A DNA stretch of 64,000 nt from the NCBI RefSeq assembly GCF_032598905.1, contig NZ_CP122458.1:8333001-8397000 (forward strand), given 5' to 3'. Origin of the DNA: Streptomyces sp. 11x1 (lineage in GTDB: Bacteria > Actinomycetota > Actinomycetes > Streptomycetales > Streptomycetaceae). The translations under genes and the position numbers were made by a program. Shown here piece after piece: positions 26,330 to 42,631 of this stretch. The first letter of the stretch is position 1. Each line of letters begins with the position of its first letter. Below the pieces are notes generated by a model, which saw only the letters and a program-made list of their open reading frames with translations, was not told the origin of the DNA and ran no database searches.

Positions 26330-26684
26330 GTGGAGGGAGAACCCGCCCGGACGCACCACCTCGACCGGCCCTGGCACCCGGGCGGGGAGCCGCACGCCGT
26401 CGCCCAGCTGCCCTTGCGGGTTGTCCGCCGCGATCGAGTCGTCGCCGTGGACGGACATGATCGGCTTCTCCTGGAAGGACACGCGGTTCACGGAGTACCG
26501 GAGGTGCGGGCCGGGATCCGGCGTCACCACCGACCGGCCGCAGCTCGACCGCGCCGACGCATCTACCCACACGGTCACCAAGTACCTCGCGGGGACGGAC
26601 GGTTGGGCATCGCATCGCCCGCACGCCGGCGCCGACCGCTGGGCCCGTTCCCGGATACAGCACAGACCCCCCGCAACTTCATAA
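26330..26684 (+). pseudogene. Pectinesterase (CE8) C-terminal remnant with frameshift
   Basis: Frame from 26330 reads HHLDRPWHPGGEPHAVAQ, the conserved arginine-tryptophan region of CE8 (RPW-P). One extra base near 26420 moves the homology to another frame: SAAIESSPWTDMIGFSWKD, then TRFTEYRRCGPG and TVTKYLAGTDGW, the family C-terminus. Compare FPWQDQRFAEYRNTGPG in the intact enzyme at 30420. The catalytic N-terminal part is absent. It is a decayed copy left between GH43 and the binding-protein gene. Confidence 0.8.
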
Positions 26685-29112: not shown

Positions 29113-30420
29113 ATGCGTCCTCGTATGTGGCATGCCCATGTCATGACATCCGTCGTCGGCTGCACCGCGCTCGTGCTCGGGGTCACCGGCACCGGCGTCG
29201 CCCAGGCCCAGGTGCGTGACCTCGGGCGGCAGGTCCTCGGTGCCGGTGACGGGTGGGGGTCGGCCGAGGGCGGCACCACCGGTGGGTCCGCCGCCGACGC
29301 CGAGCACGTCTACACCGTCACCACCTGGGCGGAGTTCAAGGCCGCGCTGAGAGACGGTGGAGACGCGCCGAAGATCATCAAGGTGAAGGGGATGATCGAC
29401 GCCGTCTCCGAGGGCTGCGAGGCCTTCGTCACCGACGGCTACGACCTCCAGCAGTACCTCAAGGACTACGACCCGGCCGTCTACGGCAACGACCAGGTCG
29501 CCAGGGGGCCGCAGGAGGACGCGCGGGTCGCGTCCATGGCCAACCAGGACTCGGCGATCAAGGCCGACATCCCGTCCAACACCACGATCGTCGGCGTCGG
29601 CAAGAACTCCGGCATCCTCGGCGGCAGCCTCCAGATCAAGGGCGTCTCGAACGTCATCATGCGCAACCTCACCATCGAGGCGCCGCTCGACTGTTTCCCC
29701 AAGTGGGACCCGACCGACGACGACAACACCGGCAACTGGAACAGCGAGTACGACGCCGTGGTCGTCTTCGGCACCGACCACGTCTGGCTCGACCACAACA
29801 CCTTCACCGACGGGCGCTACCCGGACAGTGAGCGGCCGGTCTACTTCGGCAAGGTCTTCCAGCAGCACGACGGCCTGACCGACATCGTGCGCGGCTCCGA
29901 CTACGTGACCGTCTCCTGGAACCGCTTCCAGGACCACGACAAGAACATGCTGATCGGCAACAGCGACGGCACCGCCGCCCTCGACTCGGGCAAGCTCAAG
30001 GTCACCCTGCACCACAACCGCTTCGACGGGATCCTCCAGCGTTCCCCGCGTGTGCGGTTCGGCCAGGTCGACGTCTACAACAACCACTACGTGGTGACCG
30101 AGGAGCAGAAGGACGACTACTACCTCTTCGGTGTCGGCCTCTCCTCGCAGCTCCACGCCAGCGACAACGCGATCACGCTGCCGTCGGGCGCGAGTGTCGG
30201 CAAGGCCCTGAAGAGGTGGAACGACTCCCCGCTCACCGCCGAGAACAACTACGTCAACGGCAGGCTGACGGACCTGATCGCCGTCCACAACGCCGAGATC
30301 CCCTCGGAGTTCCTCCGGTCGGGCGCCGGCTGGATGCCCACCCTGCGGACCAAGGTCGACTCGCCGCGCGCCGTGCCGGGCGTCGTCGCGAACCGCGCGG
30401 GCGCCGGGAAGGTCTGCTGA
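29113..30420 (+). CDS. Secreted pectate lyase, family PL1
   Basis: A 435-residue enzyme with a signal peptide ending near GVAQAQ. It cleaves polygalacturonate by calcium-dependent beta-elimination. The PL1 beta-helix markers are GGSLQIKGVSNVIMRNL, DAVVVFGTDHVWLDHNTF (calcium-site Asp), GSDYVTVSWNRFQDHDKNML, and the catalytic Arg region ILQRSPRVRFG. The C-terminus GWMPTLRTKVDS is the segment retained in the collapsed copy at 22480. CGAAAGGA lies ahead of ATG 29113. The next gene starts inside its stop (TGATG), so lyase and esterase are co-translated. Confidence 0.93.
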   Translation: MRPRMWHAHVMTSVVGCTALVLGVTGTGVAQAQVRDLGRQVLGAGDGWGSAEGGTTGGSAADAEHVYTVTTWAEFKAALRDGGDAPKIIKVKGMIDAVSEGCEAFVTDGYDLQQYLKDYDPAVYGNDQVARGPQEDARVASMANQDSAIKADIPSNTTIVGVGKNSGILGGSLQIKGVSNVIMRNLTIEAPLDCFPKWDPTDDDNTGNWNSEYDAVVVFGTDHVWLDHNTFTDGRYPDSERPVYFGKVFQQHDGLTDIVRGSDYVTVSWNRFQDHDKNMLIGNSDGTAALDSGKLKVTLHHNRFDGILQRSPRVRFGQVDVYNNHYVVTEEQKDDYYLFGVGLSSQLHASDNAITLPSGASVGKALKRWNDSPLTAENNYVNGRLTDLIAVHNAEIPSEFLRSGAGWMPTLRTKVDSPRAVPGVVANRAGAGKVC

Positions 30421-31613
30421 TGATCGGGCGCCAACCGGGGCCGAGCAGACGGTCGTTGACGGCCGCCGGGATCGGGACCGCGCTCGCGCTCGCCGTCGCG
30501 ACCCCGGTCCGAGCGGCCCGAGCGGCCCAAGCGGCACCGGCGGCCCGGGCCGACCGCGCCGCCCGTGGCCGCCGGGTCTTCGGACGGTACGGATCGCCGG
30601 CCGCCCGCCTCGACGAGCGGACCCTGTACGTGGATGCCGGCGGTGCCGGCGACTTCACCACCGTCCAGGCCGCCGTCACCGCCGCTGGGGGTACCTCCCA
30701 GGCGTTCAGCACTGGGGGAGGCACCGGATACACCCTGGTCGTCGCGCCCGGCGTCTACCGCGAGACCGTCGCCGTCGGCGTCGCCCGTACGGAGATGACC
30801 TGGATCGGTGCCTCCGGGGACGCCCAGGACGTCGTGGTCGTGTACGACAACGCGGCCGGCACCCCCAAGCCCGGCGGCGGCACCTACGGCACCACCGGGT
30901 CCGCCACCACCCTGGTGCAGGCCGCCGGGTTCACCGCGCGGGACATCACCTTCGCCAACGACTGGCTGCGCGCCGACCACCCCGGGATCAGCGGCACCCA
31001 GGCCGTCGCCATCAAGGTGCAGGGCGACCGGTCCGCGTTCCTGCGCTGCCGGTTCCTGGGGCACCAGGACACCCTGTACGCCGACTCGACGGCGCTCGGC
31101 ACCTTCGCGCGGCAGTACTTCCGCGACTGCTACGCCGAGGGGGACGTGGACTTCGTCTTCGGACGGGCCACCGCCGTCTTCGAACGCTGCCACTTCCACA
31201 CCCTGACCAGGACCGACCTGGCCTCCGCGCCCTACGGGTTCGTCTTCGCGCCCTCCACCGCGGGCGCCAACCCGCGCGGCTACCTGGTGACCCGGAGCCG
31301 GATCACCAGTGAGGCACCGGACGCCCACTACAAGCTGGCCCGGCCCTGGGTGCCCAGCTCGGACACCACCGCCCGTCCCATGCTCACTGTGCGCGAGACC
31401 CGCCTCGGTGCCGGGATCGACGCGGTAGCGCCCTACACCGACATGTCGTCGGGCTTCCCCTGGCAGGACCAGCGGTTCGCCGAGTACCGCAACACCGGAC
31501 CCGGCGCCGTCGTCTCCGTCCCGGAGAACCGGCCCCAGCTCACGGCCGCCGAGGCTGCCTCCGCCACCCGTGAGGCGTACCTCGGCGACTGGACCCCGTG
31601 GGAGAGGTGCTGA
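30420..31613 (+). CDS. Secreted pectinesterase, family CE8 (first)
   Basis: A 397-residue enzyme with a twin-arginine-like signal (PSRRSLTAAGIGTALALAVA). It removes methyl groups from pectin for the lyases. CE8 motifs: TLYVDAGGAGDFTTVQAAV, ISGTQAVAI, LGHQDTLYADS (catalytic Asp), EGDVDFVFGRATAVF (second Asp) and KLARPWVPSS (Arg). Compared with the next gene it has about 14 extra residues (GGTSQAFSTGGG) encoded by a palindrome-like insert at 30685-30720. Start ATG 30420 overlaps the lyase stop. Confidence 0.93.
   Translation: MIGRQPGPSRRSLTAAGIGTALALAVATPVRAARAAQAAPAARADRAARGRRVFGRYGSPAARLDERTLYVDAGGAGDFTTVQAAVTAAGGTSQAFSTGGGTGYTLVVAPGVYRETVAVGVARTEMTWIGASGDAQDVVVVYDNAAGTPKPGGGTYGTTGSATTLVQAAGFTARDITFANDWLRADHPGISGTQAVAIKVQGDRSAFLRCRFLGHQDTLYADSTALGTFARQYFRDCYAEGDVDFVFGRATAVFERCHFHTLTRTDLASAPYGFVFAPSTAGANPRGYLVTRSRITSEAPDAHYKLARPWVPSSDTTARPMLTVRETRLGAGIDAVAPYTDMSSGFPWQDQRFAEYRNTGPGAVVSVPENRPQLTAAEAASATREAYLGDWTPWERC
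30685..30720 (+). repeat. Palindrome-like insert inside pectinesterase gene
   Basis: TGGGGGTACCTCCCA followed by GGCGTTCAGCACTGGGGGAG. This arrangement resembles short interspersed repeats of Streptomyces. It is 36 bases, so the frame is kept, and it lies where the paralogue at 31615 has no sequence. Confidence 0.6.
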
Positions 31614-31614
31614 G

Positions 31615-32646
31615 ATGCGCCGACGCACCCTGCTCGGCGGAATCGCCGGCGGCCTGGTGGCCGCCGGCGCGGCCCCCGCCCTCGCCCATGGCGGCCGCCG
31701 GGTCCTGCACGTCCGGCCCGGAGGATCGGTCCAGGCCGCCGTGGACGCCGTCACCTGGCCCGGGTGGACGATCGTCGTCCACCCGGGGACGTATCGCGAG
31801 GTCGTCAACATCCCAGCGGACAAGCGGGAGTTGACACTGCGGGGCGCGTCCCGCGACCCCCGCGCCGCCGTGATCGTCTTCGACCGCGCCAACGGCACCC
31901 CCAGGCCGGAGGGCGGCACGTACGGCACCGCGGGCTCCGCCACCTTCACCTCGGCGGCGCCAGGCCTGACCGTACGCGACCTGACCCTCGCCAACGACTG
32001 GCTGCGCGCCGACCACCCCGACATCACCGGGACCCAGGCGGTCGCCGCGTACGTCACCGGGGACCGCTCGCACTTCGAGAACGTCCGGTTCCTCGCCCAC
32101 CAGGACACCCTGTTCGCGGACACCACCGCGCTCGACGCCTTCGACCGGCAGTACTACCGGCACTGCTACATCGAAGGTGATGTCGACTTCGTGTTCGGGC
32201 GGGCCCGCGCCGTGTTCGACTCCTGCCACTTCCGCACCCTCCAGCGAGATGTGACCTTCACCCCCAAGGGCATGGTCTTCGCCCCCGCCACCGCCCGCGC
32301 CAACCTCTACGGCTTCCTCGCCCTGCGCGGCCGGATCACCTCCGGCGCCGAGGACGCCGCGTACAAGATCGCCCGACCCTGGGTGCCCTCGTACGAGACG
32401 ACCGCCTGGCCGTCGCTGGTCGTGCGGGACACCTGGATCGGCCCCGGGATCGACGCCGTCGCGCCCTACACCAACATGCGCGACGCCTACCCCTGGCAGA
32501 CCATGCGCCTCCGCGAGTACGCCAACTCCGGTCCGGGCGCGGTCGTCTCCGTGCCGGAGAACCGGCCCCGGCTGACGGCGGCCGAGGCCAGGGAGCACAC
32601 ACCGAGGACCTACCTCGGGGACTGGAGGCCCTGTGCCGGCCGGTGA
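31615..32646 (+). CDS. Secreted pectinesterase, family CE8 (second)
   Basis: A 343-residue paralogue of the preceding gene, starting at ATG 31615 one base after its stop. Twin-arginine-like signal MRRRTLLGGIAGGLVAAG. Motifs: ITGTQAVAAY, LAHQDTLFADT, EGDVDFVFGRARAVF, KIARPWVPSY, REYANSGPGAVVSVPENRP. Both copies keep all catalytic residues, so both are probably active; they may differ in pattern of de-esterification. Its end overlaps the next gene by 14 bases. Confidence 0.92.
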   Translation: MRRRTLLGGIAGGLVAAGAAPALAHGGRRVLHVRPGGSVQAAVDAVTWPGWTIVVHPGTYREVVNIPADKRELTLRGASRDPRAAVIVFDRANGTPRPEGGTYGTAGSATFTSAAPGLTVRDLTLANDWLRADHPDITGTQAVAAYVTGDRSHFENVRFLAHQDTLFADTTALDAFDRQYYRHCYIEGDVDFVFGRARAVFDSCHFRTLQRDVTFTPKGMVFAPATARANLYGFLALRGRITSGAEDAAYKIARPWVPSYETTAWPSLVVRDTWIGPGIDAVAPYTNMRDAYPWQTMRLREYANSGPGAVVSVPENRPRLTAAEAREHTPRTYLGDWRPCAGR

Positions 32647-33850
32647 ACCGGCGGGCGCCCCGGATCCGCTCGGGACCCGACGGCCCGTGGGGCGCCGCGC
32701 CTTCGTCGTGGGCGCGGGGGCGGCGGCGTTCACGGGCGCCGGAACGGCCGCGGCGGCCGGGGCGGAGCCCGCGGCCGCCGCCGGGTCCGCCCTGCCCGGT
32801 GCCCTCCCTGACTTCCACCCCCTGCTCAAGGACGAGCTCCGCTTCCCGCTCGCCTGGGGCACCTCACCGATCCGGGACTTCCGCACCTGGCGGCGCGCGG
32901 CCCGCGCCAAGGTCGAGGAGCATCTGTTCGTCGCCCGGGACGACACCCCGTACGCGCCCGAGTACGGCGGACAACGGGACGAAGGCGACGGCTACAGCCG
33001 CGAGTCGGTGGCCTTCTCCCTCACCCGGTACGGCCGCGTCCGGGGCGCCCTGCTCACCCCGCACGGCACCGGACCGTTCCCGGCCGTCCTCCTCCTGCAC
33101 GACCACGGCGCCAAGTTCGACATCGGCAAGGAGAAACTGGTCCGGCCGTGGTTCGACGAGAGCAGGCTCGCCTCCGCGCGGGCCTGGGCCGACCGGTACT
33201 TCAGCGGCCGGTTCGTCGGCGACGAACTCGCCCGGCGCGGCTACGTCGTCCTCGCCGTGGACGCGCTCGGCTGGAGCGACCGGGGCCCGGTCACCTACGA
33301 GGAGCAACAGGCCCTCGCGAGCAACCTCTACCACCTCGGCTCCTCCCTCGCCGGGCTCATGGCCAGGGAGGACGTGCGCGCGGCGGGCTTCTTGGCCGGC
33401 CTCGACCGGGTGGACCGGCACCGGGTCGCGGCCCTCGGGTTCTCCATGGGTGCGTTCAGGGCCTGGCAGACGGCCGCCCTCAGCGACGACATCGCGGCCG
33501 CGGTCAGCATCTGTTGGATGACCGGCCTCAAGGACGTCATGGTCCCCGGCAACAACATCCTGCGCGGCCAGTCCTCCTACTACATGCTCCACCCCGGGCT
33601 CGCCCGGTACCTCGACTTCCCCGACGTGGCGAGCATCGGCGCCCCCAAGCCGATGCTGTTCCTCCACGGCGGCCAGGACCCCCTCTTCACCAGCGAGGGC
33701 GTCCGGGTCGCGCACGAGAAGCTGCGCGCCGTCTGGCGTTCACGCCACGCCGGGGAGCGGTTGGACCTGCGTATCCGGCCGGACCTCGGCCATGTGTTCA
33801 CCGCACCCCAGCAGGACGAGGTCTTCGACTGGCTCGACGCCGTCCTGTGA
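32633..33850 (+). CDS. Secreted alpha/beta hydrolase (dienelactone hydrolase / acetyl esterase-like)
   Basis: A 405-residue protein with twin-arginine signal (TRRPVGRRAFVVGAGAAAF). The nucleophile elbow is GFSMGAFRAWQ near residue 270; the acid is in HGGQDPLF and the histidine in DLGHVFTAPQ. An early HDHGAKFDIGKEKL supplies the oxyanion region. The family includes glucuronoyl and acetyl-xylan/pectin esterases (CE7/CE15-like neighbours). Start GTG 32633 lies inside the previous gene, indicating coupling. In this operon it probably removes acyl groups from pectin side chains. Confidence 0.85.
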   Translation: MPAGEPAGAPDPLGTRRPVGRRAFVVGAGAAAFTGAGTAAAAGAEPAAAAGSALPGALPDFHPLLKDELRFPLAWGTSPIRDFRTWRRAARAKVEEHLFVARDDTPYAPEYGGQRDEGDGYSRESVAFSLTRYGRVRGALLTPHGTGPFPAVLLLHDHGAKFDIGKEKLVRPWFDESRLASARAWADRYFSGRFVGDELARRGYVVLAVDALGWSDRGPVTYEEQQALASNLYHLGSSLAGLMAREDVRAAGFLAGLDRVDRHRVAALGFSMGAFRAWQTAALSDDIAAAVSICWMTGLKDVMVPGNNILRGQSSYYMLHPGLARYLDFPDVASIGAPKPMLFLHGGQDPLFTSEGVRVAHEKLRAVWRSRHAGERLDLRIRPDLGHVFTAPQQDEVFDWLDAVL

Positions 33851-33888
33851 ACCATCCCCCCACCCGCACGGGAAAGGAACCGCTCCCC

Positions 33889-35001
33889 ATGTCTCGTCGC
33901 ACCGCTCTCGTCCTGAGCACGGCCCTGGCGCTCGGCGCCGGCCTGGCCGTCCTCCCCACCCGGGCGCACGCCGCGACCGTGGTCGTCGACACGACCACGG
34001 CCCTGTCCAGCGCCATCAAGAACGCCACCCCCGGCACCGTCATCCAGGTGCGCGGCGGCACGTACTACCCGACGGCGACCCTCCAGTCGACGGCCAACGG
34101 CAGCTCGTCCAGCCGGATACGCCTCCAGCCGTACGGCTCGGAGACAGTGAAGATCGACGGCTCGAACCTCCCCGACGGCGACTGGATCTTCAAGCTGACC
34201 GCCGACTACTGGACCGTCTCCGGGATCACCTTCCAGAACTCCCCGGACAGCGCGGTCGTCTGCCAGTCCTGCGCCTCCACGGTCTGGGACAACATCAGGA
34301 CCATCAACGGCGGCGACTCCGGCTTCACGCTCACCGGCGACGGCACCACCAACAACACCGTCCGCAACATCGACTCCTACGGCCACTACGACCCGGCCAA
34401 CCACGGGGAGAACGCCGACGGCATCGCGGTGAAGTTCGGCTCCGGCAGCGGCAACCTCATCACCGGGGCCCGTCTCTACAACAACGCGGACGACGGCCTG
34501 GACTTCTGGTCCTTCTCCTCGCCCGTCACCGTCGAGCACACCTGGGCGATGGGCAACGGCAAGAACCGCTGGGGCGATGCCGCGTTCGCCGGCGACGGCA
34601 ACGGCTACAAGCTCGGCGGCGACGGCGAGACCGTGGCCCATGTCGTCAACAACTCGGCGGCCTGGGACAACGCGGGCAACGGCTTCACCGAGAACAGCAA
34701 CAAGGGCGCCATCGTCATCAACCGGACCACCGCCTACGCCAACGCCAAGTGGGGCTACTACTTCGCCACCGGCGCGGCCCGTCTCGGCAAGAACCTGGCC
34801 GTGAGCAACGGCGGCGGCCCCGTCAACAAGGCTTCGTCGGTCGTGTCGTCCGGCAACAACTGGGACTCCGGCGTCTCGACCCCGTCGTTCCGCTCCACCG
34901 ACGCCTCCTCGACGTACAACGCCCGTTCGTCGAGCGGCGCCCTGCCCGCGACCACCTTCCTCACCACGGGCAGTACGACGATCGGCTCGACCATGAACTG
35001 A
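33889..35001 (+). CDS. Secreted pectate lyase, family PL9 (first)
   Basis: A 370-residue right-handed beta-helix protein; signal peptide ends near RAHA. Helix turns show NPxS and NxAD-type ladders: NADGIAVKFGSGSGN, YNNADDGLDFWSFSSPV (calcium-site Asp residues), and GNGYKLGG, whose lysine is the catalytic base in PL9. Start ATG 33889 with GGAAAGG upstream. It ends the acetylesterase-to-PL9 run and is followed by a hairpin. A second PL9 of the same layout is at 38352. Confidence 0.92.
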   Translation: MSRRTALVLSTALALGAGLAVLPTRAHAATVVVDTTTALSSAIKNATPGTVIQVRGGTYYPTATLQSTANGSSSSRIRLQPYGSETVKIDGSNLPDGDWIFKLTADYWTVSGITFQNSPDSAVVCQSCASTVWDNIRTINGGDSGFTLTGDGTTNNTVRNIDSYGHYDPANHGENADGIAVKFGSGSGNLITGARLYNNADDGLDFWSFSSPVTVEHTWAMGNGKNRWGDAAFAGDGNGYKLGGDGETVAHVVNNSAAWDNAGNGFTENSNKGAIVINRTTAYANAKWGYYFATGAARLGKNLAVSNGGGPVNKASSVVSSGNNWDSGVSTPSFRSTDASSTYNARSSSGALPATTFLTTGSTTIGSTMN

Positions 35002-36739: not shown

Positions 36740-38104
36740 CTACGCCGGGGTCGGCACCGCCTCCACGGTCCAGACGCGCTTCGTGCCGTCGGCACCGGTG
36801 ACCGTGTACTTCTGCGGCTTACGGAAGTCGCGGCGGGTTCCCGGCCTCGGGCTCACCGACGCGCCCTCACCGAGCCACAGCTTCGGCGCCAGCCGGGAGA
36901 GCTTCGCGCCGGGCGCCATCGGCAGGACGACCTCGGACGAGGCCTCGGTGACGACCGCGTACCCCTGCTGGCCCTTCGCCGTCACGTCCACGACCGAGGC
37001 CGGGGTCACCGGATACGCGGCCAGCAGCCGGTCGTACTCCCGCCGTGTCACCGGGATGACCGTGCCGTGTCGGGGGCTGGCGGGCAGTTGGTAGTTCGTC
37101 GACGGGGTCCACCGGCCGGAGCCGAGGTCGGTCGTCTCGAAGGGGAGGTAGCCGCGGCCGCCGTACTCGTCGATGAACAGGTACCACTTCTCCTCGGTGT
37201 TCGACTTGAACACCGTCGGCCCCTCGCCGCGGGCCATCGCGCCGTCGCCGATGCAGTCCGCCACGAAGTCGTACCTGGTCGAGGTCAGCGACGTCGACTT
37301 CTCACCGGTGATGAACTTGGCGCAGGGGCTGGAGGAGGTGGGGTCCCGCTCGTCCTTGGTGTAGCGGTAGTACGTGCCGTCGTGCTCCACCACGGTCGAG
37401 TCGATGACCGAGTAGCCCGGGTCGTTCCAGACCTTCGGCTCGCCGAAGGCGCGGAAGTCCTTCGTCGTGGCGTACAGCATCTTGTTGTGGGTGGAGCCGG
37501 TGTGGCCCGGGTCGTCGTCGGCGTACAGCTTCGACGCCCAGAACACGACGAACTCACCGCGGCTCTCGTCCCAGTACGCCTCCGGCGCCCAGGTGTTGCC
37601 CGCGTTGTCGGGCGAGACCCTCACCAGCCGCTGGTCGGTCCAGTGCACCAGGTCCGTGGACTCCCAGACCATGATCGACTTGCTGCCGTGTCTCTGGACC
37701 TGGTCCCAACTGCCGCTGCTGTTGCGGTACATCCGCAGATCGGTGGCGATCATGTAGAACTTGTCACCCCCGGGAGCGCGGATCACGAACGGGTCGCGCA
37801 GCCCCTTCTCGCCGATCGTCGAGGTGAGGACCGGCTCCCCGGCGTTCAACTCCCGCCAGTGCAGGGCGTCGTCGCCGCGGCTGAGGGCGTAGCGGATCTG
37901 CTCGCCGTCGGCGGTGCCCTCGCCGGTGAAGTAGGCGAAGAGATAGCCGGCGTACTGCGGGTTCTTCCCGGGCTTCTTCCCGGGCTTGTGCACGGACCGG
38001 TGCGTGGGCTCGGGTGCCGGTTGGGCCGCACCCGGTGGGGCGGCCATGAGGCCGAGGACGAGGGCCAGGAGGGGCAGCAGGAGCGTACGGGCGGTGGGGC
38101 GCAT
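36740..38104 (-). CDS. Secreted glycoside hydrolase, family 43-like
   Basis: A 454-residue secreted protein; Sec signal (ARTLLLPLLALVLGLMAA). Propeller motifs: LFAYFTGEGTADGEQI, GLRDPFVIRAPGGDKFYMIATDL (Asp), AGNTWAPEAYWDESRGEFVVFWAS, VIDSTVVEHDGTYYRY and the likely acid Glu in MARGEGPTVFKS. About the last 100 residues form a small beta domain (VVDVTAKGQQGYAVV). Such proteins act as arabinanases, arabinofuranosidases or galactosidases on side chains of rhamnogalacturonan. It is transcribed away from the second PL9 gene across a shared 247-bp promoter region. Confidence 0.85.
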   Translation of the reverse strand: MRPTARTLLLPLLALVLGLMAAPPGAAQPAPEPTHRSVHKPGKKPGKNPQYAGYLFAYFTGEGTADGEQIRYALSRGDDALHWRELNAGEPVLTSTIGEKGLRDPFVIRAPGGDKFYMIATDLRMYRNSSGSWDQVQRHGSKSIMVWESTDLVHWTDQRLVRVSPDNAGNTWAPEAYWDESRGEFVVFWASKLYADDDPGHTGSTHNKMLYATTKDFRAFGEPKVWNDPGYSVIDSTVVEHDGTYYRYTKDERDPTSSSPCAKFITGEKSTSLTSTRYDFVADCIGDGAMARGEGPTVFKSNTEEKWYLFIDEYGGRGYLPFETTDLGSGRWTPSTNYQLPASPRHGTVIPVTRREYDRLLAAYPVTPASVVDVTAKGQQGYAVVTEASSEVVLPMAPGAKLSRLAPKLWLGEGASVSPRPGTRRDFRKPQKYTVTGADGTKRVWTVEAVPTPA

Positions 38105-38209: not shown

Positions 38210-38220
38210 CGAAACTTTCG
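38210..38220. promoter_or_regulatory. CGAAACTTTCG box
   Basis: A perfect inverted repeat (CGAAA-C-TTTCG) 20 bases ahead of the -35-like element of the second PL9 promoter. Boxes of this form are known upstream of streptomycete xylanase genes, where they act in carbon-source control. Confidence 0.6.
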
Positions 38221-38239
38221 AGCAATTTGGCGGGGCGCG

Positions 38240-38266
38240 GCAACCCTTTCCCGGCCGGCGGCGACC
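38240..38266 (+). promoter_or_regulatory. ECF-sigma-like promoter of second PL9 gene
   Basis: GCAACC (38240-38245), 15 bases, GCGACC (38261-38266), followed by AGT. The same two elements with the same spacing, and a similar spacer (CTTTC..GCCGG.G), lie upstream of the PL3 gene on the other strand. The leader to the start codon is about 80 bases. Confidence 0.6.
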
Positions 38267-38351
38267 AGTGATCAGAAGCGGGCCGGGGTGGGCCCTCCGG
38301 CCCGCTTCGTTCCTCGTCTCCCGAAGACGCGTCCCCTGCGAAAGGAACCCC

Positions 38352-39506
38352 GTGCGTCAGACCTACGGACGCCACCGTAGAACCCGGACCCTGTCGATCG
38401 CCGCCGCCGTGTCCGTCGCCGCGGGGGCGGGCGGCGTCTACCTCGGCCTCGCGCACGACGGCGCCCAGGCCGCCGCCAACACCGTCACGGTCTCCAGCAC
38501 CGCCGCGCTGGAGTCGGCCGTGGCGAACGCCGTCGCCGGTACGACGATCCAGGTGCGCGGCGGCACCTACAAGCCGACGAAGACCCTGAAGTCCACGGCG
38601 AACGGCACCCCCTCGGCCCGGATCACGCTCACCGCGTACGGCGGCGAGAAGGTCAAGGTCGACGGGTCCGCACTGCCCGCCGGCTCCTGGCTCGCCGGGA
38701 TCTACGGCGACTACTGGACCGTCTCGGGACTCACCTTCCAGAACTCCCCGGCCCAGGGCTTCGTGGCCACGTCCTCGGTCGGCGGTGTCTTCCAGAACCT
38801 CGTCACCGCGAACAACGGCGACTCGGGCTTCACCCTGCGCGGTGACGGCACCACGGACAACCTCGTGCGCAACCTGGACAGTCACGGCAACTACGACGCC
38901 GCGAACCACGGCCAGAACGCCGACGGCATCGCCGTGAAGTTCGGCTCGGGCACCGGCAACAGGATCACCGGGGCGCGCCTGTACGGCAACGCTGACGACG
39001 GGCTCGACCTCTGGCAGTTCTCCTCGCCCGTCACCGTCGACCACTCCTGGGCCTTCGGCAACGGCAGGAACCGCTGGAAGGACCCCGCGTTCGAGGGCAA
39101 CGGCAACGGGTTCAAGCTGGGCGGCGGCGGAGCCTCGGTCGCGCACTCCGTCAACAACAACGCGGCCTGGGACAACACGCTGCACGGGTTCACCGAGAAC
39201 TCCAACACCGGCGCGATCCTGGTGAACCGCAACACGGCCTACGCCAACAAGGGGAACGGGTTCTACTTCGCCACCGGCAAGGCCCGGCTGGCGCGGAACC
39301 TCGCGGTGGGCAACGGGACGGGGGAGGCGAAGCTGGGCTCGGGCACGGTCTCGGCTGCCAACAACTGGGACAGCGGCATCACCGCGCCCGCCTTCCGGTC
39401 CGAGGACGCGGCCACCGCGTACGCGGCCCGGCGGACGGACGGCTCCCTGCCGATCACGACGTTCCTCACCACGGGCTCCAAGTCCATCGGCGCGACGATG
39501 AACTGA
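38352..39506 (+). CDS. Secreted pectate lyase, family PL9 (second)
   Basis: A 384-residue paralogue of the PL9 at 33889. Start GTG 38352 with GAAAGGA upstream; the N-terminus has an RRTR basic stretch then a hydrophobic segment, so export may use a longer signal. Shared motifs: NADGIAVKFGSGTGN, YGNADDGLDLWQFSSPV, GNGFKLGG (catalytic Lys) and the C-terminal FLTTGSKSIGATMN. The intact calcium and lysine sites indicate an active enzyme. It has its own ECF-like promoter and a strong terminator, so it is a single-gene unit. Confidence 0.92.
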   Translation: MRQTYGRHRRTRTLSIAAAVSVAAGAGGVYLGLAHDGAQAAANTVTVSSTAALESAVANAVAGTTIQVRGGTYKPTKTLKSTANGTPSARITLTAYGGEKVKVDGSALPAGSWLAGIYGDYWTVSGLTFQNSPAQGFVATSSVGGVFQNLVTANNGDSGFTLRGDGTTDNLVRNLDSHGNYDAANHGQNADGIAVKFGSGTGNRITGARLYGNADDGLDLWQFSSPVTVDHSWAFGNGRNRWKDPAFEGNGNGFKLGGGGASVAHSVNNNAAWDNTLHGFTENSNTGAILVNRNTAYANKGNGFYFATGKARLARNLAVGNGTGEAKLGSGTVSAANNWDSGITAPAFRSEDAATAYAARRTDGSLPITTFLTTGSKSIGATMN

Positions 39507-39580
39507 CCTGCCGCGCGGGGCGAGACGCCAGGAAAGGGCGAGACGCCGGGAGGGGCGAGAACAGACGGGGCGAGAAGAAG

Positions 39581-39618
39581 GCGCCCCCCGCCGGTCGTCA
39601 CCGGCGGGGGGCGTTTTT
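39581..39618 (+). terminator. Strong rho-independent terminator after second PL9 gene
   Basis: GCGCCCCCCGCCGG and CCGGCGGGGGGCG pair around TCGTCA, followed by TTTTT. It is the clearest terminator in the window. Confidence 0.92.
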
Positions 39619-39672
39619 CGTGCCGACCCCGAGGGGGGCTCAGGTCGGCACCTGCTGCCGGCCGAGGGGGGC

Positions 39673-40073
39673 TCAGGCCAGCAGGTCCACGCAGTCGAAC
39701 GAGGTACCCGGGCTGACGAAGCCCGTGCCGCTCGAACCACTGACGATGTCGAGTATCAGTACGTTGTACTCACTGGTGTTCGACTTCCCTGCACTTGCAG
39801 GGACGCTGTAGAGGAAGGTGTGGTTGTTCCCCGGTACGAACCCGTGGTGAGCGAACGGGTGGACGGCTGTTTCGGGGCCGCCGGGACCGGCGGGACCCGG
39901 TCATTGATGAATACCCGCGGTCGCCCGCCCGCGAACGCGTCCGTGACACCGATCCGCAGGGTGTGCGCGGCGGCGGCCTGCGCGGGAGTGAGTTGTGAGG
40001 GTGCGGAGCGCCCGTACCGCTGCCGGCCCGGGGCCGTGGGGGGCGAAATGGTGCAGGTGACGGTTGCGGGGGC
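39673..40073 (-). pseudogene. Rhamnogalacturonan lyase (PL4) C-terminal remnant
   Basis: The minus strand reads LTPAQAAAAHTLRIGVTDAF and AGGRPRVFIND, then STRSLTTGSYRG. A one-base deletion near 39831 shifts the frame, after which it continues NNHTFLYSVPASA, NVLILDIVSGSSGTGF and SPGTSFDCVDLLA before a stop at 39673. This is the beta-sandwich C-terminal domain of PL4 rhamnogalacturonan endolyases. The catalytic part is gone; the break coincides with a TnpB fragment starting at 40079. Confidence 0.75.
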
Positions 40074-40078
40074 GTGGC

Positions 40079-40208
40079 ATGTTCGAGGACACCGGCCGCA
40101 AGTGGGCCAAGAAGGTCGTCCGCGGCCACGACGCCATCGCCGTCGAAGACTTCCGCTGCTCCAGACGGCGGCCTGAGCCAGGAATCCTGTCTGCACGGGA
40201 GGCTTCAG
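40079..40208 (+). mobile_element. IS200/IS605-group TnpB fragment with right end
   Basis: The plus strand encodes DTGRKWAKKVVRGHDAIAVEDF, cut here to the recognisable core WAKKVVRGHDAIAVEDF: the TnpB segment with the RuvC-like acidic residue. Nothing else of the protein remains. The following AGGAATCC..GGGAGGCTTCAG (40178-40201) resembles the hairpin right end of these elements. The fragment abuts the truncated PL4 gene and stops at the PL3 stop codon, so insertion and later deletion probably destroyed PL4. Confidence 0.6.
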
Positions 40209-41035
40209 TTGTACGTGATGGCAGATGACGAGAACTTGCAGGTGGTTCCGTCCGCACCCACACCGATCTGCGTCGGTTCCTTGCCGGAACTGTTGCCCTT
40301 GAAGCGCACGCAGGTCCTGACCTTCTTCTTCGGGTCACCGTGGACGCGGATCCTCGACAGCGTCGCGGTGTCGCCGTAGTTGGCGTTCACGCCGACGATC
40401 GCCTTCAGGGGCGCCACGACGTCGATGTCGCTGAGCACGATCGCGCGCTTGTGCTGCTTCTTGCAGTTGCCGCAGGAGCGCACCAGCTTGCCGGAGTCCT
40501 GCACCCGGAACCCGGTGATGCTGAGCCTCCCGGCGCCGTTGAACTGGAACACCTTGTCCGAGGCCTTCTTCGCGCCCCCGCCGACGACCTTGTACACGGC
40601 CTTCGACGACGTGCCCTTGAAGCTGGCCGCGTCCTCACCGACATCCAGCCACCAGACGTTCTTCAGGGTGCAGCTGCCCTTGCAGTGCACGCCGTCCGCC
40701 CCCGGTACACCGATGATCACGTTCTTCAGCACGGCGCCGTCCGCCAGTTCGAAGATCGGGTCCCGGCCCTCGTCCTGGCTGCCGTCGCCGAGCGCGCCCT
40801 TGCCGAAGAACTTCCTCAGCCTGCCGTCGTACGTGCCCTTCACCCCGATCGTCGAGGAGACGGCCTTGCTGCCCTTGGCCGTCGGCCAGGTGGCGGCGGC
40901 GCCGGCGGAGGACAGCAGCGACGTCGTGGCGAGCACCCCGCCCGTGAGGGCGAGGGCGGCCACCGACCCGATCACGGCCCGCCGGCCGGTGACCCGACGG
41001 CGGTGCCGGACGCGCTGTTCTGCAGGTGCGGTCAT
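40205..41035 (-). CDS. Secreted pectate lyase, family PL3
   Basis: A 276-residue enzyme; ATG 41035 is chosen because the signal peptide then reads basic residues (RVRHRRRVTGRR) followed by a hydrophobic core. PL3 motifs: KGTYDGRLRKFFGKGALGDG, FELADGAVLKNVIIG, ADGVHCKGSCTLKNVWWLDVGEDAAS (calcium-binding acidic residues) and the basic RSCGNCKKQHKRAI region. Cysteine pairs suggest disulfides. An ECF-like promoter matches that of the second PL9. Upstream on the same strand are the SigE-family sigma factor and its coupled membrane protein. Confidence 0.92.
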   Translation of the reverse strand: MTAPAEQRVRHRRRVTGRRAVIGSVAALALTGGVLATTSLLSSAGAAATWPTAKGSKAVSSTIGVKGTYDGRLRKFFGKGALGDGSQDEGRDPIFELADGAVLKNVIIGVPGADGVHCKGSCTLKNVWWLDVGEDAASFKGTSSKAVYKVVGGGAKKASDKVFQFNGAGRLSITGFRVQDSGKLVRSCGNCKKQHKRAIVLSDIDVVAPLKAIVGVNANYGDTATLSRIRVHGDPKKKVRTCVRFKGNSSGKEPTQIGVGADGTTCKFSSSAITYN

Positions 41036-41074
41036 GTACCCGATTCCTCGCTGGTGGTGACTCTTGCGCCTACT

Positions 41075-41101
41075 GGTCGCCACCGGCGGAGAAAGGGTTG
41101 C
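41075..41101 (-). promoter_or_regulatory. ECF-sigma-like promoter of PL3 gene
   Basis: Minus strand GCAACC (41101-41096), 15 bases, GCGACC (41080-41075), then AGT: the same elements and spacing as at 38240-38266. The start codon follows about 40 bases later. Confidence 0.6.
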
Positions 41102-41159
41102 CGCGCCTGCGGAACTTTTTCGAGCCGTGCATCGCCCTCGCCTCGACCTCGACCTCGAG

Positions 41160-42032
41160 TTACGAGTCGCTCTCGTCCGGGGAGTCGTCGTCCTTGTCCT
41201 GGGCCTCGAAGCCGCCGCCGACCGTGAGGTCCTCGCCGCCCGCCTTCGCGGTCATCGTGTAGCGGTCGTCACTCGCGTCACGGCCGCCGCGCTCATGGTT
41301 GTACTGCCCGGCGAAGACGAACTCGCCCTTCGGGACCGTGCGTCCGTCCTTGAGCACCCAGGTGTAGACCAGGAACCCGTCGCCCTCCTCGACCGTGAGG
41401 TCGAAGTCCTGCTCCGGCAACGACCGCCAGGCACCGGACGAGGAGACCCCGCCGGTCTGGGCGATCCTCAGCTGGACGGTCAGCTCGGTGAGCTGTTCGC
41501 TCGTCCTCAGGGTGAGGTTGCTCTGCGCCCAGAAATCGTTGCTGTGCGGGTCGACCGCGCCGTCGGACCGGAGCGGCCCGTCCTCCTCGCTGTTCGAGGT
41601 GGGCAGCTTCGGCACCGGCGTGCCCTTGGGCGACGGGCTGTTCGACGGCGTCGAGCCGGGCTTCTCCTCGCGCTTCCCGTCGGCGCTCGGGGTCGGGCGG
41701 TCCGGCGGGAGCGGGGCGCGGCTGGTCGCGCCGGGGGAGTCGACCGGAGTCGGGGAGACCACGACCGTCCGGTCGGCGGGGGGCGTCGGTTCGCCCTTCA
41801 CCGCGGAGGCGACCGCGTAGCCGCCGACCGCGAGCACACCCGCGACACCGGCCGTGGCGGTGACCACCCGCACCCAGCCCCACAGCGGCGGCCGGGTCGC
41901 CCCGCGGCTCCGGCGCTCCTCGGGGGCGGCCATACCGCGCTCGATCCGGGCCAGGATGCGGGCGCGGTCGGGCTCGTGCGTCTCGGCCGACTCGCGCAGC
42001 CGGGCGCGCAGCTCCTCGTGCACGTCCCTCAT
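41160..42032 (-). CDS. Membrane protein coupled to SigE-family sigma factor, possible anti-sigma factor
   Basis: A 290-residue protein. Residues 1-50 are cytoplasmic and helical (DVHEELRARLRESAETHEPDRARILARIERGM), residues about 53-78 form one membrane segment (VRVVTATAGVAGVLAVGGYAVAS), then a Pro/Ser/Thr linker leads to an outer beta-rich domain of about 130 residues (FWAQSNLTLRTSEQLTELTVQLRI, DFDLTVEEGDGFLVYTWVL). Start 42032 overlaps the sigma gene stop by ATGA. This one-pass layout with a sigma partner suits an anti-sigma factor that senses an outside signal; the outer domain looks able to bind a ligand. No zinc-finger motif is seen. Confidence 0.75.
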   Translation of the reverse strand: MRDVHEELRARLRESAETHEPDRARILARIERGMAAPEERRSRGATRPPLWGWVRVVTATAGVAGVLAVGGYAVASAVKGEPTPPADRTVVVSPTPVDSPGATSRAPLPPDRPTPSADGKREEKPGSTPSNSPSPKGTPVPKLPTSNSEEDGPLRSDGAVDPHSNDFWAQSNLTLRTSEQLTELTVQLRIAQTGGVSSSGAWRSLPEQDFDLTVEEGDGFLVYTWVLKDGRTVPKGEFVFAGQYNHERGGRDASDDRYTMTAKAGGEDLTVGGGFEAQDKDDDSPDESDS

Positions 42033-42631
42033 CGGTCCCTTCCTCCGGTGCCGGTCACTCCCGCGCGGGTCACGCGCGGCTTCGTGGCGCCCCCGCCCGC
42101 GATGCCCGCGTGCATCCGCCGCGGCGCGTCCTCGGTGCCGAGCAGCTTCTGCAACTCGGCCATCCCCTTGGACGTCTGGCTCTTCACCGTACCGACCGAG
42201 ACGCCGAGGGCGAGCGCCGTGTCCTTCTCCGAGAGGTCGAAGGCGTGGCGCAGGACCACACAGGCCCGCTTGCGGAACGGCAGCCTGCGCAGCGCCGACT
42301 GGACGTCGACCGCGCCGGGCACATCGGGATTCTCGGTCTTCTCCTCGCGCTGCGACCAGAACAGCGTGACCCTGCGGCGCTCACGGACCGCGCTGCGGAT
42401 CCGGGTGCGGGCCAGATTGGCGACGACGCCACGGGCGTACGCCACCGGATGGTCCGCCGCGCGGACCCGGTCCCAGCGGTGCCACATCGCGAGCAACGCG
42501 TCCGCGGCCAGGTCGTCGGCGGCATCCGCCTCACCCGTCAACAGGTGTGCGAGGCGCGACAGTTCGGCATAGTGCCGTTCGAAGAAGGCGTGGAACTCCA
42601 CGGAGGCTGCGTCGTCGACGACTGTGCCCAC
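42029..42631 (-). CDS. SigE-family ECF RNA polymerase sigma factor
   Basis: About 200 residues from GTG 42631, preferred over ATG 42658 because AGAGAGG lies five bases upstream. Region 2 is FHAFFERHYAELSRLAHLLTGEADAADDLA with LLAMWHRWDRV. Region 4 is ALRRLPFRKRACVVLRHAFDLSEKDTALALGVSVGTVKSQTSKGMAEL, seen here in pieces up to 20 residues such as EKDTALALGVSVGTVKSQTS. It would direct polymerase to ECF promoters. Matching ECF-like elements occur upstream of PL3 (41075-41101) and the second PL9 (38240-38266), making these plausible targets. Confidence 0.9.
   Translation of the reverse strand: MGTVVDDAASVEFHAFFERHYAELSRLAHLLTGEADAADDLAADALLAMWHRWDRVRAADHPVAYARGVVANLARTRIRSAVRERRRVTLFWSQREEKTENPDVPGAVDVQSALRRLPFRKRACVVLRHAFDLSEKDTALALGVSVGTVKSQTSKGMAELQKLLGTEDAPRRMHAGIAGGGATKPRVTRAGVTGTGGRDR

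Follow-up and report, generated by a model that had tools for sequence, protein, structure and literature searches.

A shared promoter-like sequence upstream of Streptomyces pectate lyase genes suggests a dedicated switch for plant-cell-wall breakdown

Two genes for secreted pectin-degrading enzymes, of polysaccharide lyase families PL9 and PL3, carry nearly the same promoter-like motif in a 64,000-nt stretch of the genome of Streptomyces sp. 11x1 (NZ_CP122458.1, 8,333,001-8,397,000; hereafter the window, the whole genome being 10.67 Mb). They lie beside the gene of an extracytoplasmic function (ECF) sigma factor (42029-42631) and of a membrane protein coupled to it. The motif, its conservation in the genus, the genes found downstream of it and its co-occurrence with the sigma family are established by sequence comparison, and together they suggest a dedicated switch for plant-cell-wall breakdown. 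We consider it likely (probability about 0.8) that the motifs are promoter elements for this sigma factor or its subfamily, which would be held by the membrane partner and would drive a pectin/plant-wall regulon.

The PL9 site is on the + strand (38239-38267), with a putative -35 element GGCAACC at 38239-38245 and a putative -10 element CGACC at 38262-38266, and its matrix score is 39.9 of 41.5. The PL3 site is on the - strand (41074-41102; -35 GGCAACC 41102-41096, -10 CGACC 41079-41075) and scores 41.0. Both have the form GGCAACC-N16-CGACCA. A preliminary description of the window, made by a model from the sequence alone, had reported the two motifs with identical spacing; its coordinates were correct when re-read from both strands, GCAACC (38240-38245) being followed after a 15-base gap by GCGACCAGT (38261-38269) at PL9, and GCAACC (41101-41096) after the same gap by GCGACCAGT (41080-41072) at PL3. 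The spacers are alike, as it had said, with CTTTC opening both and GCCGG near the end of both. It had also placed a common CGAAA stretch ahead of the two sites, and this does not hold: the stretches are unlike elements, a perfect palindrome at PL9 and an A/T-rich tract at PL3 (about 41113-41122, - strand, upstream of the -35). At the tract position mean A+T over 60 PL3 sites is 0.71, versus 0.26-0.28 in the flanks. The ATG of PL3 lies 36 bases past the end of CGACCAGT.

Across the sites that we collected, the motif takes the form C-GGCAACC-(C/T)TTTC-N-G(C/T)GG-CGACC-A, where GCAACC and GCGACC are 15 or 16 bases apart and the first G of the -35 is 23-24 bases from the CG of the -10; it consists of two blocks in which dyad symmetry is not apparent. 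The -10 CGACC is fixed by the search pattern across the genus, and some relatives have GGCAACC or other variants in its place. A CGCA begins about 11 bases downstream of where CGACC starts and moves along when the gap lengthens, behaving as a start site would. PL3 start codons mostly lie 32-52 or 96-125 bases past the motif, and those of PL1 36-59 (script-predicted starts, with outliers).

The specificity of the motif was examined in the own genome of the window. The short core GCAACC-N14-16-CGACC is near background (61 matches versus 44 for the reversed control) and was rejected as a stand-alone search. In the window, the pattern of the preliminary description gave 8 matches at up to 3 mismatches versus a shuffle mean of 4, a count of 8 being reached by 5 of 100 shuffles, and its only perfect matches are the PL9 and PL3 sites. 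With the full motif GGCAACCCTTYC-N6-GGYGGCGACCA and up to 3 mismatches, these two sites stand alone in the whole genome and the control gives none; unlike the short core, the full motif is above background, and the observation of a shared motif is confirmed. A version with a 16-base gap had a single match, inside a coding region, which was discarded.

A relaxed pattern, GGCAACCYTTYC-N6-GGYGGCRACYR, again with up to 3 mismatches, found 10 matches (control 3), and seven of them lie within about 170 bases upstream of the genes for PL9, PL3, two expansins, PL11, GH10-GH62 and a truncated PL1. The PL11 site is about 40 bases from its lyase gene, and the GH10-GH62 site directly follows a second sigma-partner pair. 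One of the two expansins was compared with the PDB and matches PDB expansins (best E 2.5e-68). The five sites added by the relaxed scan are weak by the matrix, with scores from below 8 to 21.5.

The census was then extended to the genus with the pattern GGCAACCNTTN{9,11}GNGGCGACC, which was derived from PL3 upstream regions. Of 121 Streptomyces genomes, 32 matched it, with 37 sites in all; in a set of 392 genomes that includes these 121, the figures were 102 genomes and 127 sites. The reversed pattern gave none in either set. Six genomes of a class-wide sample of 394 match, five of them belonging to the 40 genomes of the same genus and one to the remaining 354; this sole outside match has a 17-base gap, lies among phage-like genes and was rejected. 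We classified the genes downstream of 129 sites, namely the 127 of the genus sample and two new ones of the class sample. PL3 follows 60 of them, PL1 17 (some fused to pectinesterase), PL9 15, PL4 10, expansin 5, pectinesterase 4, a secreted family of unknown function 3, PL11 2 and GH10 1, the labels PL4, PL11 and GH10 having first been set from translations and Pfam run on one representative each (for PL11 and GH10, the own-genome proteins). Six sites, at pectin or sigma loci, have no co-oriented gene that could be found, and six fall in another class, which includes all three sites with a 17-base gap.

Wall families or the secreted family of unknown function (3 sites) are thus preceded by 117 of the 129 strict sites. 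Together with the seven of ten relaxed matches above, this answers favourably the genome scan proposed in the preliminary description, which asked whether genes for secreted beta-helix or carbohydrate-active proteins lie behind the matches. Since the search pattern came from PL3 loci, the count of 60 PL3 sites is in part circular; of the 69 other sites, 54 precede named wall families and 3 the family of unknown function. Among the 30 best-matching loci, the one of the window included, the motif is upstream of the PL3 orthologue in 29, with a matrix that was partly trained on them. In a named collection that overlaps the genus sample, the matches listed cover 80 loci out of 119 stretches; among them, 73 of 81 sites precede wall families (where a GH10 label can stem from a shared lectin domain), two precede the unknown family and six none of these, three of the six coming from other phyla (3 of 80 loci, matching no seed protein).

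Some of these sites deserve mention for themselves. In L124, L213 and L215 the motif is followed by a secreted-looking protein of 446-461 residues; the L124 protein matched no Pfam family, and the group is perhaps a new plant-wall enzyme. Motif copies at pectin or sigma loci of L190, L419 (S. scabiei 87.22), L128, L217, L220, L194 and L141 have no co-oriented lyase gene that was found downstream; a gene may have been lost there, or a short transcript may have escaped recognition.

The PL9 and PL3 sites are only about 2.8 kb apart and closely similar over 30 bases, so a duplication could have left the likeness as an inheritance without regulatory meaning. The occurrence of the motif before unrelated families, at unlinked places and in many genomes, and the differences in flanks and spacers make such an origin very improbable.

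We next consider the sigma factor. It is encoded on the - strand (42029-42631), has 200 residues and belongs to the SigE family TIGR02983 (171.7 bits, cut-off 141.55); Pfam recognises only regions 2 and 4, plus a weak PhyR sigma2 match below cut-off. A close homologue is present in 99 of 102 motif genomes, versus 74 of 121 sampled genomes. The 121-genome sample divides into 74 sigma-positive and 47 sigma-negative genomes, and its 32 motif genomes all belong to the former (Fisher 6e-9, kinship uncorrected); 67 of 70 further motif genomes have the sigma family. PL3 matches occur in six sigma-negative genomes, four of them without the motif (best score 12; in G106 PL3 is represented by fragments only).

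Sigma gene and motif stay together in varied gene orders: sigma-partner-motif-PL3 or PL4, motif-expansin-sigma-partner, motif-PL9-sigma-partner, second sigma-partner-motif-GH10 (a weak site, in the own genome) and divergent arrangements with PL3 or GH12. The locus is complete in S. coeruleorubidus ATCC 13740 (L380), with the sigma gene, the partner, a motif scoring 41, PL3 and PL9. PL3 of G004, G015 and G076 carries the motif or a close variant without a sigma gene beside it; there the sigma gene lies at a distance in the genome or on a different contig. At the syntenic PBP/permease site, 18 of 19 sigma loci have wall genes nearby; at other sites 17 of 28 do, and of 13 other ECF loci of the own genome none does. 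Without seven loci that had been fetched for their motif, the first two counts become 14 of 15 and 14 of 25. The tie between the motif and the neighbouring sigma factor drawn in the preliminary description is therefore supported by co-occurrence, by these gene orders and by a promoter-like spacing, and it would still be an assignment made from sequence.

The own genome holds a paralogue of the sigma factor that is 78% identical, and the other ECF factors found with the sigma query reach at most 37%. A quick tree groups the sigma homologues of the genus in a single clade that excludes 12 of the 13 other own-genome ECF factors. Among 43 diverged members, conservation is 0.83-0.88 in regions 2 and 4, 0.54 in the linker and 0.23 in the tail; that the DNA-contacting regions are kept best is expected if the members read the same promoter. 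SCO1876 and SCO1880 are presumably the S. coelicolor counterparts; the passages on SCO1876 met in two papers do not concern pectin.

Several points, among them the kinship uncorrected in the association above, weigh against assigning the motif to this sigma factor. Three of the ten relaxed matches are not at wall genes, which is the number of the control. The motif is absent from the other pectinase genes of the window (29569-34947), only the second PL9 gene and PL3 carrying it. The sigma-E-type -10 CGTC was not found at the two window sites, which both have CGACC. The association is weak for sites that lie far from the sigma gene (8/74 versus 0/47, p 0.02, hand count). Two sigma-negative genomes have a PL3 motif: that of G114 scores 34, on a contig that ends inside the partner gene, and that of G103 (L239) is degenerate, scoring 22, the partner there being fragmentary and PL3 split, and all three have a decayed look. 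The partner of the window matched no Pfam or NCBIfam family, so no recognised anti-sigma domain. The three motif genomes lacking a sigma match are G225 (a PL11 site), G265 (a 17-base gap, chance) and G338 (1510 contigs). Finally, ECF sigma factors are usually autoregulated, and none of 104 sigma frames has a co-oriented motif scoring at least 20 within 400 bases upstream (L261 reaches 19.7), so that autoregulation, or positive feedback, is seen only where the sigma gene follows a target gene.

These last two counts would fit a motif bound by another, unseen plant-wall transcription factor, with a sigma gene that merely shared its gene islands. Part of the open reading frames in the compared neighbourhoods is unlabelled and regulators were compared at these loci only, which leaves room for such a factor. 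The motif itself argues for a promoter instead, with its two blocks, a gap of 15 or 16, no apparent dyad symmetry and a sigma-E-like spacing, and the sigma-partner pair stands beside it in several gene orders; we regard this alternative as unlikely.

Another possibility is that a general ECF factor of the sigma-E type reads these promoters, the neighbouring sigma factor not being the main one. Some sigma-E is expected in the 47 sigma-negative genomes, and the strict motif is absent from them (G103 and G114 being the exceptions by matrix). As described in the sigma-E regulon paper (PMC6767563), S. coelicolor sigma-E promoters have a -35/-10 spacing equal to that of our motif, and some have a GGCAACC-type -35, as in targets such as hrdD. 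The same paper gives CGTC as the typical -10, where the window motif has CGACC, and cell-envelope genes as about half of the regulon, where the motif precedes plant-wall enzymes. The terms "pectate" and "SCO1880" are absent from the main text of that paper (term search). Control by sigma-E thus appears decidedly improbable.

Under the preferred assignment, RNA polymerase with the sigma factor 42029-42631, or a member of its subfamily, would read GGCAACC...CGACCA as -35 and -10. The membrane partner would most likely keep the sigma factor at the membrane until a signal, plant wall material outside, is met by its outer beta-sandwich and the sigma factor is freed. Secreted pectin and plant-wall enzymes and expansins would then be transcribed. 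In the own genome the regulon would include PL3 and PL9, which have strong sites, and probably the two expansins, PL11 and GH10-GH62, which have weaker ones. In this scheme we infer dependence on the sigma factor, the anti-sigma role of the partner and the signal, the last two from topology and gene order alone.

The partner (P0003), a candidate anti-sigma factor, is encoded on the - strand (41160-42032), its ATG overlapping the sigma stop (ATGA 42029-42032). It comprises a short N-terminal helix pair, one hydrophobic segment (identified by eye), a linker rich in Pro, Ser and Thr and a C-terminal beta-sandwich. The structural model (mean pLDDT 61) begins with two short helices, followed by an extended middle of low confidence and by a better-predicted beta-sandwich at about residues 144-277. 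A homologue follows the sigma gene in most compared loci, not in all, and some homologues are named anti-sigma factor in database records. Structure comparison (Foldseek, VIA-align) matched adhesin, pilin and adaptin domains equally well, with chitin-binding and CBM3b domains at Foldseek rows 16-44; since the listed matches share only a common beta-sandwich, we claim no ligand. Neither the protein nor its alignment found a match among PDB sequences. A beta-sandwich would suit a binding domain on the outside, without being proof of one.

The membrane partners of SigI factors, called RsgI, carry outer sugar-binding domains. An RsgI-type N-terminal domain was not recognised in the partner, which has no Pfam family. 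In Clostridium thermocellum the SigI factors with their membrane anti-sigma partners govern plant-wall enzymes, and a pectin regulon is predicted in Pseudobacteroides, according to a 2024 review (PMC10766802). Our system resembles them in linking a sigma factor with a membrane partner, here a candidate anti-sigma factor, to plant-wall enzymes; it differs in that the sigma factor is of the ECF type (TIGR02983) and that the partner has no Pfam-recognised domain and a generic beta-sandwich as outer domain.

That review names Bacteroides, Cytophaga and Clostridium for ECF/anti-sigma control of wall enzymes and refers to computational predictions for the actinobacterial groups ECF52 and ECF53 (PMC10766802). 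These groups, too, are actinobacterial ECF factors tied by prediction to carbohydrate domains; in them the anti-sigma and sensor portion forms one protein with the sigma factor, whereas here it would be a separate, overlapping gene. No report of the motif or regulon was found in the literature searched, most subscription papers being outside its reach.

Streptomyces genomes carry dozens of ECF sigma factors whose purpose is not understood, and how the genus induces pectin breakdown has found little explanation. With its near-zero background, the motif could provide a function together with a testable list of targets, in which pectate lyases, pectinesterases, rhamnogalacturonan lyases and expansins share one promoter type. 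It would bear on the recognition of plant tissue by soil and plant-associated Streptomyces, and the promoters might form a set for enzyme production.

A more far-reaching and rather speculative idea is that Streptomyces has a dedicated plant-wall branch of ECF factors, whose beta-sandwich partners sense wall polymers directly and whose paralogues divide pectin (the branch of the window) from expansin, xylan or xyloglucan targets (GH10-GH62, GH12, GH74-like), the -10 changing from CGACC to CAACC. Separately, we observed motifs with a changed -10 in L255, L261, L269 and L270 (GGCAACCA in three of them, GGCAACTG and GGCCACTG in L270). They precede GH12, PL9 and a GH74-like gene and lie beside diverged sigma members of the same family.

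At PL9 the motif is accompanied by the perfect palindrome CGAAACTTTCG (38210-38220, no strand), between the divergent GH43 and PL9 genes. It has a single match in the window, where chance would give 0.58 at 1 mismatch, and is identical to the published BxlR operator sequence (PMC4743123). The exact sequence, on either strand, precedes 11 of the 15 PL9 motif sites, and three others have a palindrome like it; the CGAAA-TTTCG type is therefore present at 14 of 15, where PL3 sites have the A/T tract. By sequence identity this would be an operator for BxlR-type repressors of Streptomyces, forming a second layer separate from the motif and lacking at PL3. Since it stands beside the motif, PL9 may have two controls; the palindrome may also act on the divergent GH43 gene.

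The genes around the motifs are as the preliminary description had them, a secreted PL9-like beta-helix lyase, PL3, the SigE-family sigma factor and its coupled membrane protein being recovered by Pfam, NCBIfam and the ATGA overlap. The predicted targets are the PL9-like gene (38352-39506, + strand, PF22842) and the PL3 pectate lyase gene (40205-41035, - strand, PF03211, 247 bits). The GH43-type gene (36740-38104, - strand; Pfam/NCBIfam) diverges from PL9, and between PL9 and PL3 is the remnant of a PL4 rhamnogalacturonan lyase gene (39676-40055, - strand), at whose place two relatives (loci L125 and L126; genomes G108 and G040) have a longer PL4 frame. They belong to a pectin island with matches to PL1 (29569-30330, 29% identity), pectinesterases (30621-31598 and 31726-32637) and a first PL9 (33970-34947), followed by the second PL9, the PL4 remnant and PL3. 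Further upstream, 26345-26594 is about 60% identical to pectinesterase over a short stretch and is probably a gene fragment.

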